NCBI GenBank assembly: GCA_947258565.1
Contig: CAMYJB010000003.1
Location: forward strand, 1-64,000
Direction of reading: 5' to 3'
Length of the DNA stretch: 64,000 nucleotides
DNA from: an uncultured Woeseiaceae bacterium
Lineage (GTDB): Bacteria > Pseudomonadota > Gammaproteobacteria > Steroidobacterales > Woeseiaceae
Part shown: piece after piece, positions 24,729 to 46,489 of the stretch
Position numbering within the stretch: the first letter of the stretch is position 1
How the letters are laid out: each line of letters opens with the position of its first letter
Program-made: the position numbers and the translations under genes
The notes under the pieces: generated by a model
The model's database searches: none
What the model saw: the letters and a program-made list of their open reading frames with translations, nothing else
What the model was told of the DNA's origin: nothing

Positions 24729-24933
24729 AAGAGCACGCCGCGGCGGCGCGTGAAACCACCTGGCCTGTCGCCTAAACGGATAATTTTCAACAGCTTATGC
24801 GAATTTTTGCGGGCCGCGCGTGATGTGCGGCGCAGCATTACTGTCGGCTTTTTTTACAAATCATGAATTCGTGCCGGGTGGCTCAATGTGTACCGACCGC
24901 TAAAGCATTGAAATCTTAGCCGCCTTCGGCGGG
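24729..24933. other. Non-coding upstream region of the sigma-54 unit
   Basis: No gene is seen. The region alternates A/T-rich patches (CTTTTTTTACAAATCATGAATTC around 24848-24870) with GC-rich inverted repeats (GCCGC/GCGGC near 24814-24830; CCGCC-TTC-GGCGG at 24920-24932, just before the -24 element). This is where enhancer sites for a sigma-54 activator and an IHF bend would lie. I did not find a convincing NtrC- or CbrB-type dyad. Confidence 0.5.
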
Positions 24934-24950
24934 TTGGCACAGGTCTTGCT
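24934..24950 (+). promoter_or_regulatory. Sigma-54 (RpoN) promoter
   Basis: TTGGCAC-AGGTC-TTGCT matches the -24/-12 consensus TTGGCAC-N5-TTGCW at every conserved base, with GG (24936-24937) and GC (24948-24949) exactly 10 nt apart. Predicted transcription start is about 24961. An accidental TATAAT at 24953-24958 has no -35 at sigma-70 spacing (only 12 bp after TTGGCA). Sigma-54 promoters require an AAA+ activator, which is not encoded nearby. Confidence 0.88.
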
Positions 24951-24960
24951 TTTATAATCT

Positions 24961-25164
24961 TGCCCAAGCGAAGTGTAACTGTGCTCGGTGGCACACAAGG
25001 AACAGAGACAGGATTTAGACGCCAGAAGAACAATAACTACAAAAATAACAAGATCCAGATCCAAAACAACAAAACATCTGTATCCGATCACCGATTTCGC
25101 AGTTACCTCTTTTTAATAAAAGAGAGATTAACCCCGCCGCTCACGCTGCGGGGTTTTTTATTTT
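24961..25164 (+). ncRNA. Putative sigma-54-dependent A-rich sRNA (CrcZ-like features)
   Basis: The unit between the sigma-54 promoter and the terminator at 25131-25164 is about 200 nt and has no credible coding frame (the only long frame starts with TTG 24960, has no ribosome site and an odd Asn/Lys run). Its middle (25024-25075) is A-rich and holds five AAnAAnAA motifs: 25026-25033, 25029-25036, 25041-25048, 25044-25051 and 25065-25072. In Pseudomonas, CrcZ/CrcY RNAs are sigma-54-driven and carry repeated motifs of this kind that bind Hfq with Crc to relieve catabolite repression. A hairpin (25107-25124, CTCTTTT/AAAAGAG) and the terminator follow. Homology to CrcZ is not established; the resemblance is in promoter class, size class and motif. 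Confidence 0.65.
25131..25164 (+). terminator. Intrinsic terminator of the sRNA unit
   Basis: CCCCGC (25132-25137) pairs with GCGGGG (25148-25153) and is followed at once by TTTTTTATTTT. A strong Rho-independent terminator that ends the sigma-54 transcript before the metalloprotease gene. Confidence 0.9.
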
Positions 25165-30568: not shown

Positions 30569-33500
30569 TTGATCAGCTGGTGGGCGCTGCTGCTGTTGTC
30601 GTTGGGCTACGTCTCGCTCCTGTTCGCGATCGCGCACTGGGGTGACAAGGCGGATCCGAGCCGTTTTTCCGGCCCCGCGCGAGCAACGATCTACGGCCTG
30701 ACTCTCGCCGTTTACTGTACATCCTGGACGTTCTACGGCGCCGTCGGCACCGCTGCGGAGAACGGCTGGGGTTACCTGCCGATCTACCTTGGCCCGATGG
30801 CGGTGATCTTCTTCGGCTGGGGCATGATTCACCGCATCGTAACGGTAAGCAAGCGCCAGAACCTCACCTCGATTGCCGACTTCATCGCGGCGCGTTACGG
30901 AAAGGCACGCAGCCTTGCCGTGCTGGTCACCGTCATCGCCACAATCGGCTCGGTTCCGTATATCGCCCTGCAGCTGAAAGCCGTCGTTGCCGGCTTCGAC
31001 ATCGTGTCCAATTACTCGGCCGCGGGTGCGGCGCAAAACGACACCGCTTTCGTTTTCGCCGCAGCACTCGCCGTATTCGCCATCCTGTTCGGGACCCGCA
31101 AGATCGACGTGACCGAGCACCACGACGGCCTCATGCTCGCGGTCGCATTCGAATCGGTCGTGAAACTGTGCGCATTCGTCGCGGTCGGCCTGTTCGCCTG
31201 GTCGTTACTGGGTAACAGCACGCCCGCTATCTCGCCCGAAGCAGCCGAGCGTGCAGCAGCGGTTTTCCGCCTCGATCACATGCCGGACATGTTCGTCACC
31301 CAGTTGATATTGGCGAGTGCGGCCATCTTCTGCCTGCCGCGCCAGTTTCACGTAGCCGTCGTGGAAGCCTACGAAGACGCGAATATCCGGCCGACGCGCT
31401 GGTCATTCCCGCTGTACCTGCTGATATTTTCCGCTTTCGTCATTCCGATAACGATTGCCGGTCTGAAGATGCTGCCGACCGGCGCGCTCAGCGGCGATGC
31501 TTTCGTGCTCGCACTGCCCATGCAGGGACAGCACACCCTGCTGACCATGCTGGCTTTCCTCGGTGGCTTCTCCGCCGCAACCAGCATGGTGATCGTCGCA
31601 AGCGTAGCGCTGTCCACGATGATCAGTAACGAGATCGTCATACCGGCGCTCATGAGTATCAAGATGCTCGGCCTGTCCGAGCGCAAGGACTATACCCGCA
31701 TCCTTATGCACGTCCGGCGCGGCGCTATCGTCGGCATCACAGCCCTCGGGTATTTCTATCTCGAGGCCACGGACCAGTCTGTCGCACTGGCATCCATCGG
31801 CTTGTTGTCATTCGCGGCGGCCGCGCAGTTCGCCCCGCTCATCGTGTTTGGCCTCTACTGGCCGGGCGCAACACGCACCGGCGCCATCGCCGGACTCTGC
31901 ACGGGATTCGCGTTGTGGTCGTACACCCTGTTCCTGCCGAATCTCGCCCGTGCCGGTGCGTTCAGCGACGCATTCATCACCGAGGGCCTCTTCTCGCAGT
32001 CGTGGCTGCGCCCCGAGGCGCTGCTGGTGGATATCCAGACCAATTCGCTGACGCATGGCGTCGCCTGGTCGCTGGGCGCCAATATCCTCGTCAACGTCCT
32101 GGTCTCGATGATGACCCGGCAGTCCCTGGTCGAGAAGATCCAGGCAAGGACCTTCGCGGGCCCGGCGATCGGCTTCGGGCCGGTGCGGGCTGCGGTCGGC
32201 CGCCATGACATCACGAATGCGGACCTGCGTTCGCTGGCGGAACGATTCCTGGGCGTCCACAACGTGGAGCGATCCTTTGCCGACTTCGCGGCGTCGACAG
32301 CAATCGACCTGAATTCATCGGGCCCGGCAGACAGGCGCCTGCTGCTGTTCACCGAGCGCCTGATCGCCGGCGCCATCGGGGCGTCGTCGGCCCGCGTCGT
32401 CATGACTGCCGCATTGCGCAAGACCGGCACGGAAATCGGTGATGTCGTACTGCTGCTGGACGAAACGTCGCAGGCACTCACCTTCAACCGGCGCCTGCTC
32501 GACGCGACGCTCGAGAACATTACGCAGGGCGTCAGCGTCGTCGACTCATCGCAGCGGCTCATCGGCTGGAACAGCCGCTACGAGCAGCTGATGAACTATC
32601 CGCCCGGCATGGTCCACGTCGGGGAATCGATCGTCGACCTGATCCGGTTCAACGGCGAGCAGGGCCGCTTTGGGAATACGGACGTCAACGCCGAGGTGAA
32701 CAAGCGAATCAAGCACATTCGCTCCGGGACCCCGTACAAATACCAGAGTAATTTCATCGACGGCAAGGTCATCGAGATCAGCGGTCAGCCCATGCCGGGG
32801 GGCGGCTACGTAACGACCTACACGGATATCACCGACTCCAAGATGGTCGAAAGCGAACTCGTCGAAGCCAAGGCCATGCTCGAGCAGCGCGTCGCGGACC
32901 GTACGGCCGAACTGGAACGAGCCATGTCGGCGCTGCAGCAGGCCAAGGCCGACGCCGAGGACGCCAATGCGTCGAAGACGCGTTTTCTGGCTGCGGCTGC
33001 GCACGACCTGTTGCAGCCGCTCAATGCCGCCAAGCTGTTCGCCGCACTCCTCAACGAACACCGCGACAGCATGCCGCAGGAGCAGCAGAGCCTCGTCGAA
33101 CGCGTCGAAAACAGTCTCGTCGCCGTAGAAGACCTGCTCGGCGCACTGCTCGACATATCGCGACTGGACACGTCCGCGCCCGTACCGAAGCCGGAGGTGT
33201 TCCCGGTATCGGATATCTTCAAGGCGATAGAAACCCAGTTCTCCGCGGCGTTTGCTGAGGATGAGCTCAGGCTGCGCTTCGCCAAATCTTCCCTTTATGT
33301 TCGCTCCGATCCGGCCATGCTGAGACGCATCGTTCAGAACTTTGTCAGCAACGCGCGCCGCTACACCCCGGCGGGCGGCGTGCTGATCGGCTGTCGCCGG
33401 CGCGGCGATCGCGTGGCCATTCAGGTTGTCGACACAGGCATCGGCATCGCGCGAGAAGATCAGAAGGTCGTTTTCGATGAATTCAAGCGGCTCGGAAAAC

Positions 33501-34087
33501 GTGGCAAAGGCGCGAAGCGTGGTCTCGGACTCGGACTCGCGATCGTCGATCGTATCGCCAGGCTCCTGGATCACGAGGTCCGGATGCGATCCGAGATCGA
33601 CCGCGGAAGCACGTTCGAGATCCTCGTTCCGCTTGCGGATCGCGCCGACGCCGTGCCGAGGATCAGGGGCCTGATCGACAGGGCACCGGCATCATCCCTC
33701 GACGGCACGATCGTATTGTGCGTCGACAACGAACACTCGATCCTGGACGGCATGCAGGGCCTGTTGAGCAAATGGGGTGCAAGCCCCCTCGTGGCCAACA
33801 ATTCGGAAACGGCGCTCGAGCACATGCGGAAACTCGGCAGCAACGGCGGCGGCTGCCCGTCCATGTTGCTCGTCGACTACCACCTGGATGACGGGGTAAC
33901 GGGCATCGAGGTCATTGAGGAACTGCGCGAATTTGCGGAGAAATCGATCCCCGCGATCATCGTCACGGCCGATCACTCGCATTCGGTTCGTGAAGAAATC
34001 CGCAACTGCGGGCACGCGTTGTTGCACAAGCCGCTCAAACCGGCCGCTCTGCGCGCCCTGATGTCGCGCATCCTGACTCGCCGGTAG
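30569..34087 (+). CDS. crbS: Hybrid sensor histidine kinase with SLC5 transporter domain (CrbS/MxtR-like)
   Basis: 1172 aa from TTG 30569 with GGGGAGG 8 nt upstream. Residues 1-about 480 form a sodium:solute-symporter-like membrane domain ('ATIYGLTLAVYCTSWTFYGA'). A linker and PAS domain (about 640-760: 'LENITQGVSVVDSSQRLIGW') follow, then a coiled coil, HisKA with the H-box FLAAAAHDLLQPLNA (His812), HATPase ('GLGLGLAIVDRIARLL') and a receiver with Asp1103 (LLVDYHLDD). This is the architecture of CrbS, the acetate-switch sensor, and relatives such as CbrA. The crbR-like regulator, acsA and symporter next door fit CrbS best. Confidence 0.93.
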   Translation: MISWWALLLLSLGYVSLLFAIAHWGDKADPSRFSGPARATIYGLTLAVYCTSWTFYGAVGTAAENGWGYLPIYLGPMAVIFFGWGMIHRIVTVSKRQNLTSIADFIAARYGKARSLAVLVTVIATIGSVPYIALQLKAVVAGFDIVSNYSAAGAAQNDTAFVFAAALAVFAILFGTRKIDVTEHHDGLMLAVAFESVVKLCAFVAVGLFAWSLLGNSTPAISPEAAERAAAVFRLDHMPDMFVTQLILASAAIFCLPRQFHVAVVEAYEDANIRPTRWSFPLYLLIFSAFVIPITIAGLKMLPTGALSGDAFVLALPMQGQHTLLTMLAFLGGFSAATSMVIVASVALSTMISNEIVIPALMSIKMLGLSERKDYTRILMHVRRGAIVGITALGYFYLEATDQSVALASIGLLSFAAAAQFAPLIVFGLYWPGATRTGAIAGLCTGFALWSYTLFLPNLARAGAFSDAFITEGLFSQSWLRPEALLVDIQTNSLTHGVAWSLGANILVNVLVSMMTRQSLVEKIQARTFAGPAIGFGPVRAAVGRHDITNADLRSLAERFLGVHNVERSFADFAASTAIDLNSSGPADRRLLLFTERLIAGAIGASSARVVMTAALRKTGTEIGDVVLLLDETSQALTFNRRLLDATLENITQGVSVVDSSQRLIGWNSRYEQLMNYPPGMVHVGESIVDLIRFNGEQGRFGNTDVNAEVNKRIKHIRSGTPYKYQSNFIDGKVIEISGQPMPGGGYVTTYTDITDSKMVESELVEAKAMLEQRVADRTAELERAMSALQQAKADAEDANASKTRFLAAAAHDLLQPLNAAKLFAALLNEHRDSMPQEQQSLVERVENSLVAVEDLLGALLDISRLDTSAPVPKPEVFPVSDIFKAIETQFSAAFAEDELRLRFAKSSLYVRSDPAMLRRIVQNFVSNARRYTPAGGVLIGCRRRGDRVAIQVVDTGIGIAREDQKVVFDEFKRLGKRGKGAKRGLGLGLAIVDRIARLLDHEVRMRSEIDRGSTFEILVPLADRADAVPRIRGLIDRAPASSLDGTIVLCVDNEHSILDGMQGLLSKWGASPLVANNSETALEHMRKLGSNGGGCPSMLLVDYHLDDGVTGIEVIEELREFAEKSIPAIIVTADHSHSVREEIRNCGHALLHKPLKPAALRALMSRILTRR

Positions 34088-44324: not shown

Positions 44325-44382
44325 CGCTTGCCCGGTCTGCGCGCCACTTCTGCTTGACATGGCGCGCGGCGCTTCCTATCGT

Positions 44383-44590
44383 GGCAGCGTCATCAGGCAA
44401 GCCCGAATCGTTTCGATCGGGTGACGGGAAGCCGGTGTGAATTCCGGCGCTGCCCCCGCAACGGTGATCGAGTAAAAGCCCCAGCCCCGTGGTGCAACAC
44501 GGAGCCACTGCGACACCTCTGACGTGTTCGTGGGAAGGCGCTGCGGCAGGATGCAATCCGCTCGTAAGCCCGGAGACCGGCCTGGTGAAC
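44383..44590 (+). promoter_or_regulatory. Cobalamin riboswitch
   Basis: Conserved blocks appear in order: GGGAAGCCGGTGTGAATTCC, GCTGCCCCCGCAACGGT, the B12 box AGCCACTGCGA (44502-44512), GTGGGAAGGCG and AAGCCCGGAGACCGGCC near the 3' end. It sits in the leader of btuB, about 120 nt before the ATG. When adenosylcobalamin binds, such aptamers usually block translation or transcription of btuB and the downstream adenosyltransferase. The interval 44591-44710 would be the expression platform. Confidence 0.95.
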
Positions 44591-44710
44591 ACGCGAACGG
44601 CGCGGCGGGCGCTTGTTCGGGCCACCGCAAGCCGCTGACCCGACTCCCCCGCAGCCTTTCTGGCAAACAAGAAGCGGGTCGCGTGCGGAGGGCACGCACA
44701 GGGGAGACAC

Positions 44711-46489
44711 ATGACATTGTTCCGTTTTGTCGCGATGACGGCTTCGCTGCTGTCTGTCGCGTCGCACGTCCATGCATCGGACATTTCGCCGAGCGACACG
44801 ATCATCGTGACCGCAACACGGACCGAGATCCCGCTGGAGCAGGCAACGGTCCCGGTGCGGGTGATCACCCGCGACGATATCGAGTTATCGCTGGCTACGG
44901 ATCTTGCAGAACTGCTGCGCTTCGAAGCCGGCATCGATATCGGCCGCAACGGCGGTCCCGGCCAGGCGACCTCGTTTTTCATGCGCGGCACGGAAAGCAA
45001 CCACACGCTCGTGCTCATCGACGGTGTCCGCATGAATCCGGGCACCATCGGCGGGGCCGCGATACAGCACGTTTCGCCGGAAGTCATCGAGCGCGTCGAG
45101 ATCGTGAAAGGCGCACGCTCGGCCCTGTTCGGCACCGACGCAATAGGCGGCGTCATAAACATCATCACGCGCCGCGCCGACAAGACGTATATCGAGGGTG
45201 GCGCCGGCGCGGGCAGCTTCGATTCGCGCTCCGCATTCCTGTCGGGTGGCGTCCGCAATGAAAAGAACCAGTTCGGTTTCACGCTGGACTGGCAGGATAC
45301 GGACGGCTACCCGCCCCGCGTCGAGTCGCAGGTCGACCGGGGTTACGACAACGTCTCGCTCAACATCCATGCGGCGCGCGACATCGGCAGCGGCGAGATC
45401 AGCTTGCGGCACTGGCGTGCAGAAGGCACCGTCGAGTACCTCGACTTCTTCCTGACGCCCGTCGACCAGGACTTCCGCAATTCGGTTACCGCTTTCCAGT
45501 TCGACAAGCAGCTTTCCGAACGCGGCAGCAGCAAACTGATCGTCTCCCATATGCTGGATCGTATCGAGCAGAACCAGTCCGACGACTTCGTCGAATCCGA
45601 TCGGATCAGCCTGGACTGGCAGCACACTCTCGCCCTCGCCGAACATACGATCACCGCGGGACTGTTTGCCATGCAGGAGACCGCGAAGACGCTGTCATTC
45701 GGTTCGGGTTTCGACGAAGACACGGACGTCAGAGCGTTGTTTCTGCAGGACCAGTGGATTCGCGGCAGGCATCGGGCGTTCGTCGCGGCACGGCTCACGG
45801 ACCACGATACTTTCGGCAACCAGACGACCTATAACGTCGAGTACGGTTTTGAATTGACGCCATCCTGGACGGTGAGGGCCGGAATGGGACGCGCTTTTCG
45901 CGCGCCGGACGCGACCGACCGCTACGGCTTCGGCGGCAATCCGGATCTCGAGCCCGAGGTCGCGGACGAATACCAGCTGGGCCTGCGCTACGCGCCGGGC
46001 AGCCGTCACAGCGTCGATATCGAGTTCTACGCCAAGGATATCGAGGACCTGATCGAATTCGACCTCGCCGCCTTCACGCTCGTCAACATCGATACCGCGG
46101 AAATACGAGGGGCACAACTGGGCTACGAATATCTCGGCGACACTTTTTCACTGCGCGCAGACCTTGTCAGGCAACGCGCCGAGAACACCAGCAGCGGCAC
46201 CAGGCTGTTGCGCCGCGCCGAGGAGAGCATCACGTTGAGCTATACCCAGGACGTCGGGCGGCACCGGCTCGGTTTGTCGGTGCTCGCGAGCGGCGATCGC
46301 GAGGACTTCGGCGGCGTGATCCTGCCGGGCTACGTGGTCGCGAGCCTGACGGGACAGATTGAGCTCTCGAAAACCCTGCAGCTCAATGCGCGCGTCGAGA
46401 ACCTGTTCGATGCCGACTACCAGACCGCCGCGAACTTCCGCATGCAGGGTCGCAGCGCCTTCGTCGAACTCAAGTATCGCAGGCCATAA
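44711..46489 (+). CDS. btuB: TonB-dependent vitamin B12 receptor BtuB
   Basis: 592 aa outer-membrane receptor. Signal peptide to about residue 22, then a TonB box (DTIIVTATR), plug domain ('FFMRGTESNHTLVLIDGVRM', 'VERVEIVKGARSALFGTDAI'-like segment) and a 22-strand-type barrel ending in VELKYRRP. Length and plug sequence fit BtuB, and the riboswitch upstream fixes the substrate as a corrinoid. GGGGAGA precedes the ATG. The adenosyltransferase gene starts 2 bp after the stop. Confidence 0.95.
   Translation: MTLFRFVAMTASLLSVASHVHASDISPSDTIIVTATRTEIPLEQATVPVRVITRDDIELSLATDLAELLRFEAGIDIGRNGGPGQATSFFMRGTESNHTLVLIDGVRMNPGTIGGAAIQHVSPEVIERVEIVKGARSALFGTDAIGGVINIITRRADKTYIEGGAGAGSFDSRSAFLSGGVRNEKNQFGFTLDWQDTDGYPPRVESQVDRGYDNVSLNIHAARDIGSGEISLRHWRAEGTVEYLDFFLTPVDQDFRNSVTAFQFDKQLSERGSSKLIVSHMLDRIEQNQSDDFVESDRISLDWQHTLALAEHTITAGLFAMQETAKTLSFGSGFDEDTDVRALFLQDQWIRGRHRAFVAARLTDHDTFGNQTTYNVEYGFELTPSWTVRAGMGRAFRAPDATDRYGFGGNPDLEPEVADEYQLGLRYAPGSRHSVDIEFYAKDIEDLIEFDLAAFTLVNIDTAEIRGAQLGYEYLGDTFSLRADLVRQRAENTSSGTRLLRRAEESITLSYTQDVGRHRLGLSVLASGDREDFGGVILPGYVVASLTGQIELSKTLQLNARVENLFDADYQTAANFRMQGRSAFVELKYRRP

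Follow-up and report, generated by a model that had tools for sequence, protein, structure and literature searches.

Class II Hfq-dependent small RNAs are exemplified by ChiX and MgrR, and GlmY and GlmZ are small RNAs controlled by GlrR and sigma-54. The Woeseiaceae, the family of the DNA analysed here, form a lineage abundant in marine sediments. Titration of Hfq by a sigma-54-dependent RNA has been described for the carbon system of Pseudomonas and Azotobacter (PMC6296734, PMC8871633, PMC4063720, PMC6422490). The distal face of Hfq binds RNA by an A-R-N rule (PMC4063720, PMC6422490), and CrcZ contains six (A-R-N)n tracts with n≥4 (PMC4063720); CbrAB has been described as unique to Pseudomonadaceae (PMC8871633). 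In a second sigma-54 system, Haft et al. reported a 17-nt motif with the 3' end TTTACA before 99 of 167 proteobacterial PEP-CTERM genes, followed after a spacer of 62.8 ± 10.6 nt (32–92) by a sigma-54 site, and predicted PrsR as its ligand (PMC1569441). For a regulator of the PrsR kind in D. vulgaris, all five predicted PEP-CTERM targets were enriched in DAP-chip (PMC3333781).

The predicted gene at positions 24934–25159 of the window, i.e. the whole stretch of 64,000 nucleotides that was analysed, shares features with each of these systems. Like CrcZ, CrcY and CrcX (Rfam RF01675; Pseudomonas and Azotobacter), it combines a sigma-54 promoter with a noncoding RNA carrying several (ARN)n tracts for the distal face of Hfq, and the help by IHF found for CrcZ is predicted here. 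However, the RNA comprises about 198 nt instead of about 400 nt, lies in another neighbourhood, displays a closed stem with an A-rich loop, is not matched by the CrcZ model and is preceded by a PEP-CTERM box where crcZ has CbrB sites. With the PEP-CTERM-box regulon of PrsR and sigma-54 it shares the 17-nt box ending in TTTACA, a 75-nt spacer to a −24/−12 promoter and an encoded PrsR, whereas the switch drives a noncoding RNA here and protein genes there, and the spacer is unusually constant here. A-rich distal-face motif and U-tail are common to ChiX and MgrR, from which the present RNA differs by several long tracts and by the lack of an identified target. The resemblance to GlmY and GlmZ lies in the class, a sigma-54-dependent small RNA of about 200 nt, and in a GlrR-like protein encoded here; in contrast, there is neither an Rfam match nor an enrichment of GlrR sites, and (AAN)n tracts dominate.

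Architecture of the small-RNA gene

The segment 24934–25159 is almost certainly a genuine small-RNA gene and represents a new sRNA family. The sequence comparisons are based on 105 sequences, which collapse into 77 distinct ones (window included, a Nitrospira locus, L109, excluded beforehand). Alignment of stems and AAN triplets comprises 75 of these, with L065 and L086 dropped since they end before the terminator; upstream counts refer to the 75 with at least 150 bp of upstream sequence, with L113 and L123 dropped owing to their short upstream part.

The sigma-54 promoter TTGGCAC-N5-TTGC is situated at 24934–24949 on the forward strand. TGGCAY-N5-TTGC is present in all 77 distinct sequences, 73–79 bp upstream of the conserved core, TTGGCAC is kept exactly in 60 of them, and the former pattern occurs only once in the window, both strands counted. 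From here, an RNA of about 198 nt is predicted (24962–25159, +), beginning with GCCCAAGCGAAG, probably at position 24962, and ending in the T-run of the terminator. This extent follows from the drop in conservation past the T-run, from the covariance model R1 and from the noncoding frames; upstream, the conserved unit reaches to about 24785. The intrinsic terminator, AACCCCGC...GCGGGGTT plus T-run (25130–25159, +), was missed by a generic terminator scan. Hairpin and T-run are found in 75 of the 77 distinct sequences, the window included, and the other two stop short of this position.

The fold of the RNA is more stable than that of its shuffled versions (z −5.1). In stem P1a, positions 24975–24982 pair with 25099–25106 (GCAGTTAC), and in stem P1b positions 24985–24992 pair with 25087–25094 (both +). 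P1a is paired in 97.8% and P1b in 82% of the alignment cells, with two-sided changes at three of eight pairs in the former and at all eight in the latter; RNAalifold alone did not propose P1b as such. The apical hairpin P2 is built from GGATTT (25011–25016, +) and AGATCC (25057–25062), which are paired in 99.1% of cells and display no two-sided changes in the 75 sequences. Its loop contains the first two A-rich clusters, the remaining A-tract being located beyond the apical loop. The terminator stem is paired in 99.6% of cells, with two-sided changes at three of seven pairs. Together, the four stems, which were named after viewing the alignment and one fold, are paired in 94.2% of cells. They carry two-sided changes at 14 pairs and in 81 cells, compared with 9.6 and 22.7 in shuffles, and with at most 8 pairs and 53 cells when the stems are slid.

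Five AAnAAnAA motifs start at 25026, 25029, 25041, 25044 and 25065 of the predicted transcript, out of ten on the + strand of the entire window. Dinucleotide shuffles of the transcript contain 0.45 on average, and five were reached in 0.2% of 2000. Clusters 1 and 2 (25026–25052, +) read AAG AAC AAT AAC TAC AAA AAT AAC AAG, thus two runs of four AAN flanking one TAC, and cluster 3, with the motif at 25065, occupies 25063–25074 (+). In the window, clusters 1 and 2 are unpaired with a probability of 0.97–1.0, and the mean unpaired probability is 0.91 inside the A-motifs versus 0.39 elsewhere. The AAN register, defined after viewing the sequences, begins with AAG-AAN-AAN-AAN at 25026, and its triplets 4–9 fall outside the key that was used to search for loci. 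Among the 75 sequences, triplets 4, 6, 7 and 8 are AAN in 97–100%, triplet 9 in 84% and triplet 5 in 33%. The longest in-register run comprises four to nine AAN in all 75, as compared with one to four in one shuffle per sequence, where a single sequence of 75 reaches four. The third base is variable, least so in triplets 6 and 9 (64 of 75 alike). Near-fixed AA combined with a variable third base in the main repeats fits the requirement of the Hfq distal face. A first-pass annotation of this DNA had pointed out an RpoN-consensus promoter, a strong intrinsic terminator and five AAnAAnAA motifs; all three are borne out, and promoter and A-motifs are kept in close relatives, where it is the downstream side that varies.

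The genome encodes RpoN as well as Hfq, the latter with a close best match in the PDB (1u1s, presumably the Hfq of P. aeruginosa). On balance, the small RNA may be taken to act mainly by titration of Hfq. Both the 5' leader GCCCAAGCGAAG and the loop AGACGCCAG are near-invariant, a conservation beyond the needs of a pure sponge, so that they could contain base-pairing seeds. The RNA might then be a class II Hfq-dependent base-pairing sRNA, whose A-tracts serve for docking only while base pairing through the leader GCCCAAGCGAAGUGUAA and/or the loop AGACGCCAGAAGAA selects particular mRNAs, such as those of the surface regulon. The leader hardly varies among the 75 sequences and is mostly unpaired in the window (0.78, compared with 0.75 for the loop), and GCCCAAGCG is retained at the start of a strongly diverged copy (L177). 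On the other hand, the leader is replaced by GCGCACAAAAAA in a second family described below, in which the A-repeats stay or expand, and several (AAN)≥4 runs would exceed the needs of docking. Targets of leader and loop in cis were rejected: among 329 complementary matches in the loci, 77 of the 80 listed were the gene's own antisense strand. Base pairing as the main activity is thus possible but unlikely, and Hfq titration is kept as the working interpretation.

The upstream box and its probable activator

A 17-nt box, TGTCGGCTTTTTTTACA (TGTCGG-N5-TTTACA), is located at 24842–24858 (+) and is predicted to be the enhancer bound by PrsR. The window contains one exact copy. A tolerant pattern with a few variants (approximately GTCG-N6-TTTACA) finds the box in 74 of 75 upstream regions, separated from the promoter by 75.0 ± 2.3 nt (range 73–87). 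One IHF-like site lies on each side of the box. The distal one, TTTCAACAGCTTA (24785–24797, +), matches the known IHF consensus WATCARNNNNTTR at 12 of 13 positions and, with at most one mismatch allowed, recurs in 49 of 75 upstream regions where shuffling leaves about 4, in an interval picked after viewing the alignment. For the proximal one, TTTCAATGCTTTA on the reverse strand (24901–24913), the count is 65 of 75, against some 1.7 expected from shuffles.

Box and spacer fit motif 1 of Haft et al., as compared with its text description and not with its logo (PMC1569441). Because the published motif was comparable by text description only, the identity of the box was tested within the lineage. 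Of 40 related genomes, 33 contain the pattern TCGN6TTTACA-N52-82-GGCAYN5TTGC, with 58 matches in total, and a reversed control pattern yields none in the 40. Twenty-eight matches are situated at copies of the sRNA (one being the diverged L177) and 30 elsewhere. Seventeen of these 30 precede proteins with a PEP-CTERM-like C-terminal end, the patterns for box and protein end having been set after viewing the sequences; all eight such proteins that were scanned score above the TIGR02595 cut-off. No recognised PEP-CTERM protein follows the other 13 sites, of which one precedes a long adhesin-like protein and six may be chance matches. The remaining six (L191, L195, L198, L208, L215, L221) are found before a secreted-looking family of about 180 aa, grouped by eye. 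A single member was scanned (L198) and bears a weak resemblance to PagP (40 bits, cut-off 155); if the PEP-CTERM-box regulon did include an enzyme that modifies lipid A, this would be of interest. In the window genome no exact box plus sigma-54 site was detected besides that of the sRNA, and its surface regulon is therefore not seen directly. Since box and sigma-54 site precede the sRNA and PEP-CTERM genes alike, the switch appears to be common to the sRNA and a cell-surface regulon, and judged by these upstream sequences the gene very probably belongs to the PEP-CTERM-box sigma-54 regulon.

PrsR is the likely activator. The window genome encodes a PrsR with 705 bits (TIGR02915, cut-off 502.6). 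In a first classing of genomes, PrsR above cut-off was present in 24 of 30 with and in 3 of 20 without the sRNA. Two genomes classed as sRNA-negative had to be moved, as one (G631) carries the ordinary RNA and the other (G476) the diverged copy L177. After this change and the addition of G050, PrsR accompanies the sRNA in 26 of 33 genomes and is found in 2 of the 18 without it (p 4e-6). Once reduced genomes are set aside, the latter figure becomes 2 of 7, with 26 of 33 as before, and only a weak association persists (Fisher p 0.017). Seven of the 33 sRNA-bearing genomes lack a TIGR02915 match above cut-off (G022, G515, G551, G562, G513, G567, G631), among them the 100% complete G022, which yet carries a boxed PEP-CTERM gene (L213). 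Conversely, PrsR is present in G005 (98% complete) and G008 (64%), in which no sRNA was detected. No PrsK was recognised beside the PrsR of the window genome, as judged from the best 25 of 43 families for the adjacent kinase.

At L171:2494–8530, the neighbours of PrsR are a GlrR-like regulator, a 210-aa frame and a histidine kinase, these three pointing in the same direction, with galE near; the arrangement resembles the known gene order glrK-qseG-glrR. TIGR02915 matches of both kinds, PrsR and GlrR-like, are close together in many relatives. As a GlrR-type protein adjoins PrsR, another activator is conceivable: the same RNA could be activated by this neighbour, in a control like that of GlmY and GlmZ, or by a different enhancer-binding protein. 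The best NCBIfam match of the neighbour is GlrR, with 644 bits and below the cut-off of 763, and the lack of a PrsR above cut-off in seven of the 33 genomes that carry the sRNA points the same way. However, the GlrR site, known as TGTC-N10-GACA, is present exactly in only 1 of 75 upstream regions and with one mismatch in 7 of 75, compared with 13 of 75 in one shuffle. Furthermore, a match to the Rfam families of GlmY and GlmZ is absent, and the box is common to the sRNA and PEP-CTERM genes, which renders an activator other than PrsR rather improbable. The NtrC site, sought in its known form in the 75 upstream regions, was rejected or gave no result.

Relation to CrcZ, genomic setting and distribution

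The first-pass annotation had compared the RNA to CrcZ and suggested a carbon-catabolite function. The likeness stands in so far as the RNA is sigma-54-dependent by its promoter, A-rich and noncoding and as Hfq and RpoN are encoded, but membership in RF01675 does not. The CrcZ model gives no match at the gathering score, nor is CrcZ among the 16 Rfam matches with E up to 10, and a scan of 369 genomes with RF01675 under stricter filters returned no match in the window genome. The best low-scoring matches of other Rfam families overlap the terminator. As a yardstick, the crcZ locus L129 scores 306.8 bits against RF01675 and differs from the window sRNA in start, length and GTTAC/GTAAC elements. 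The dyad TGTTAC-N13-16-GTAACA, the known form of the CbrB site, occurs in none of the 75 upstream regions. PF00158 has 12 matches in the window genome. Eight proteins of this type were set against a presumed CbrB, namely the response-regulator ORF next to L129, so assigned by its position. Identity is at best 39–44% over long stretches and reaches 51% along 232 aa of the ATPase domain, a level to be expected between paralogues; none of the eight is closely CbrB-like. An R1 match in a CrcZ-bearing genome (L165) was rejected, as it comprises by eye only the terminator.

In Pseudomonas, crc is positioned beside pyrE, and an ExoIII/Crc-type protein is encoded beside pyrE here as well (L043:1441–2268, +). 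It scores higher with the exodeoxyribonuclease 2jc5, which we take to be that of Neisseria (317.5 bits), than with Crc (270–273 bits), and retains the GDWN and SDHAP segments of 2jc5; it might shed light on the origin of Crc. Of the partners that the annotation had proposed to look for, hfq is thus present and a candidate activator of the PrsR type was found; the candidate for crc encodes a protein that scores higher with an exodeoxyribonuclease, and no closely CbrB-like activator was seen among the eight proteins compared. A genuine carbon-catabolite RNA of the CrcZ type, under the control of a CbrB-like activator, would agree with the sigma-54 promoter, the (ARN)n repeats, Hfq, the pyrE-linked protein and the predicted assistance of IHF, which acts on crcZ in P. 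putida too (PMC6296734). Given the missing RF01675 match, the differences from L129, the absent CbrB-type site and a box that is that of PEP-CTERM genes, this reading is very unlikely. Lacking CrcZ membership and a CbrB-type input, a specific carbon-catabolite role is unsupported and that proposal is not upheld. The RNA is not a homologue of CrcZ but may work like it.

The annotation had also placed the sRNA away from cbrB, correctly so: cbrAB is not among its neighbours. An amidohydrolase/PD40 gene lies upstream in 72 of 76 loci; in the other four, the upstream sequence available is 311 bp or less. Downstream, the window contains a gene with a HEFLH motif (by eye), whose distance ranges from about 0.2 to 2.9 kb across loci; a methyltransferase-like and/or amidase-like gene (by eye) intervenes in all nine loci with listed ORFs. 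Elsewhere in the window, a hybrid sensor kinase is encoded at 30569–34087 (+), possibly the one that the annotation had likened to CbrA. Its C-terminal part scores 414.7 bits, above the cut-off of 400 of the NahK/ErcS near_NosP_CTERM family. A cobalamin riboswitch (44379–44599, +; 85.2 bits) is located just before a gene resembling a TonB B12 receptor (44711–46489; 334.5 bits, cut-off 599.7). That the segment is a small protein gene, as a 69-codon frame with a TTG start in the window might suggest, or a degenerate leader belonging to the next gene has practically no probability, since all three frames are interrupted by stops in relatives, a start codon is found in few of the 75 sequences and is not constant, landmark spacings are not multiples of three, and the terminator separates the RNA from a next gene that varies among genomes; the annotated lack of a credible ORF is thus confirmed, and no conserved protein survives in any frame across the 75 sequences.

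Of 60 related genomes searched by BLASTn, 29 contain the segment, every one of the same genus. These matches mostly extend from near the promoter to the terminator, several extend further upstream and two are short fragments. Conservation is focused on upstream elements, promoter, RNA and terminator, and identity drops directly past the T-run. The exact core pattern retrieves 77 loci among 84,980 species genomes, and wherever a family is stated for them it is Woeseiaceae, with the exception of the Nitrospira locus L109, rejected as a chance match because it lacks the promoter. As the loci were collected with this pattern, the invariance of the core is in part a product of ascertainment. Among 396 genomes of the order, the covariance model R1, built from 75 sequences, has matches in 88; nine genera of Woeseiaceae account for 85 of these genomes, many of them being training genomes of R1. 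The diverged copy L177:1618–1817 (+) stems from a different genus; it keeps box and promoter, starts with GCCCAAGCG and has only four AAnAAnAA. In G029, a second partial match (L030, L014) lies at a contig end, as does the first, and the two are therefore most likely one copy split by assembly, not a duplication. The genus g290 (G488, G565, G570, G600, G654, G656, G662, G675) comprises small Woeseiaceae genomes of 1.1–2.0 Mb (65–99% complete). In these eight, neither an sRNA match nor a TIGR02915-type match at E≤1e-100 was detected, an apparent joint loss of the sRNA and this type of regulator.

In a second family, R1 gives three weak full-length matches (31.5–42.1 bits), and a fourth copy (L175) was found by pattern. 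The four copies possess a sigma-54 promoter, 8, 10, 11 and 11 AAnAAnAA, and a closing stem of different sequence (consensus of four), although much of the remaining sequence has diverged. Rfam gives no match at the gathering score for L168–L170. Folded singly (z −5.7), L169 displays an apical hairpin, AGGAU/AUCCU, that encloses an A-rich loop and has no sequence counterpart in L168 and L170. Synteny holds for all three copies tested: the ABC-transporter gene of the window lies downstream of the first three (43–48% identity), with pdxH upstream in two of them. A model of the second family only, R2, recovers the window copy (31.8 bits, E 1.3e-4) and, among 369 genomes of the class, also one further Woeseiaceae genome as well as G050, which had served for training. 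Five further genomes with weak R2 matches (six loci) were rejected, as the box is present in none and promoter and A-motif are not combined. L227 and L230 contain four AAnAAnAA in 150 nt and no sigma-54-like site; L232 has two sigma-54-like sites (≤2 mismatches), one about 50 bp before the match, and no A-motif; L225 has one sigma-54-like site on the opposite strand. Beyond the order, R2 under strict filters found nothing convincing.

Proposed mode of action and implications

Gene, promoter, box, noncoding structure, AAN register and the genes for Hfq, RpoN and PrsR are read directly from the DNA and lead to the following model. A PrsR-type enhancer-binding protein would occupy the 17-nt box, located some 110 bp before the transcription start, IHF would bend the DNA, and sigma-54 polymerase would initiate the RNA of about 198 nt together with PEP-CTERM surface-protein genes. 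The transcript is predicted to form a long interrupted stem, to expose its (AAN)n tracts as single strands within a large loop, and to end in a U-tailed terminator. The tracts would most likely load several Hfq hexamers by the distal face. Hfq, perhaps with a Crc-type partner, would thereby be drawn from A-rich ribosome-binding sites, releasing the mRNAs concerned as long as the surface and exopolysaccharide programme is on. As a whole, the explanation of the locus as an autonomous small-RNA gene encoding a PrsR-switched Hfq sponge is held with slightly more confidence than doubt.

On a wider scale, the RNA might represent an old sRNA family, comprising at least two families within one order, in which a PrsR-driven Hfq sponge constitutes a second, independently built CrcZ-like device; this is put forward as a serious but tentative proposal. 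A separate family with another input, if true, would imply either repeated origins of the principle or a greater age than so far assumed. Among the papers listed on PEP-CTERM or PrsR and small RNAs, titles and abstract beginnings describe no such sRNA, and the literature searched on Woeseia or Woeseiaceae with sRNA or Hfq contains no sRNA study. As far as this literature reaches, the gene would be the first case of a regulatory RNA within the PEP-CTERM/exosortase regulon; a covariance-supported RNA family is now available for Woeseiaceae. The question of what PrsK and PrsR control becomes directly testable. If the model is true, these bacteria would couple their cell-surface and exopolysaccharide programme to a global post-transcriptional derepression via an Hfq sponge.
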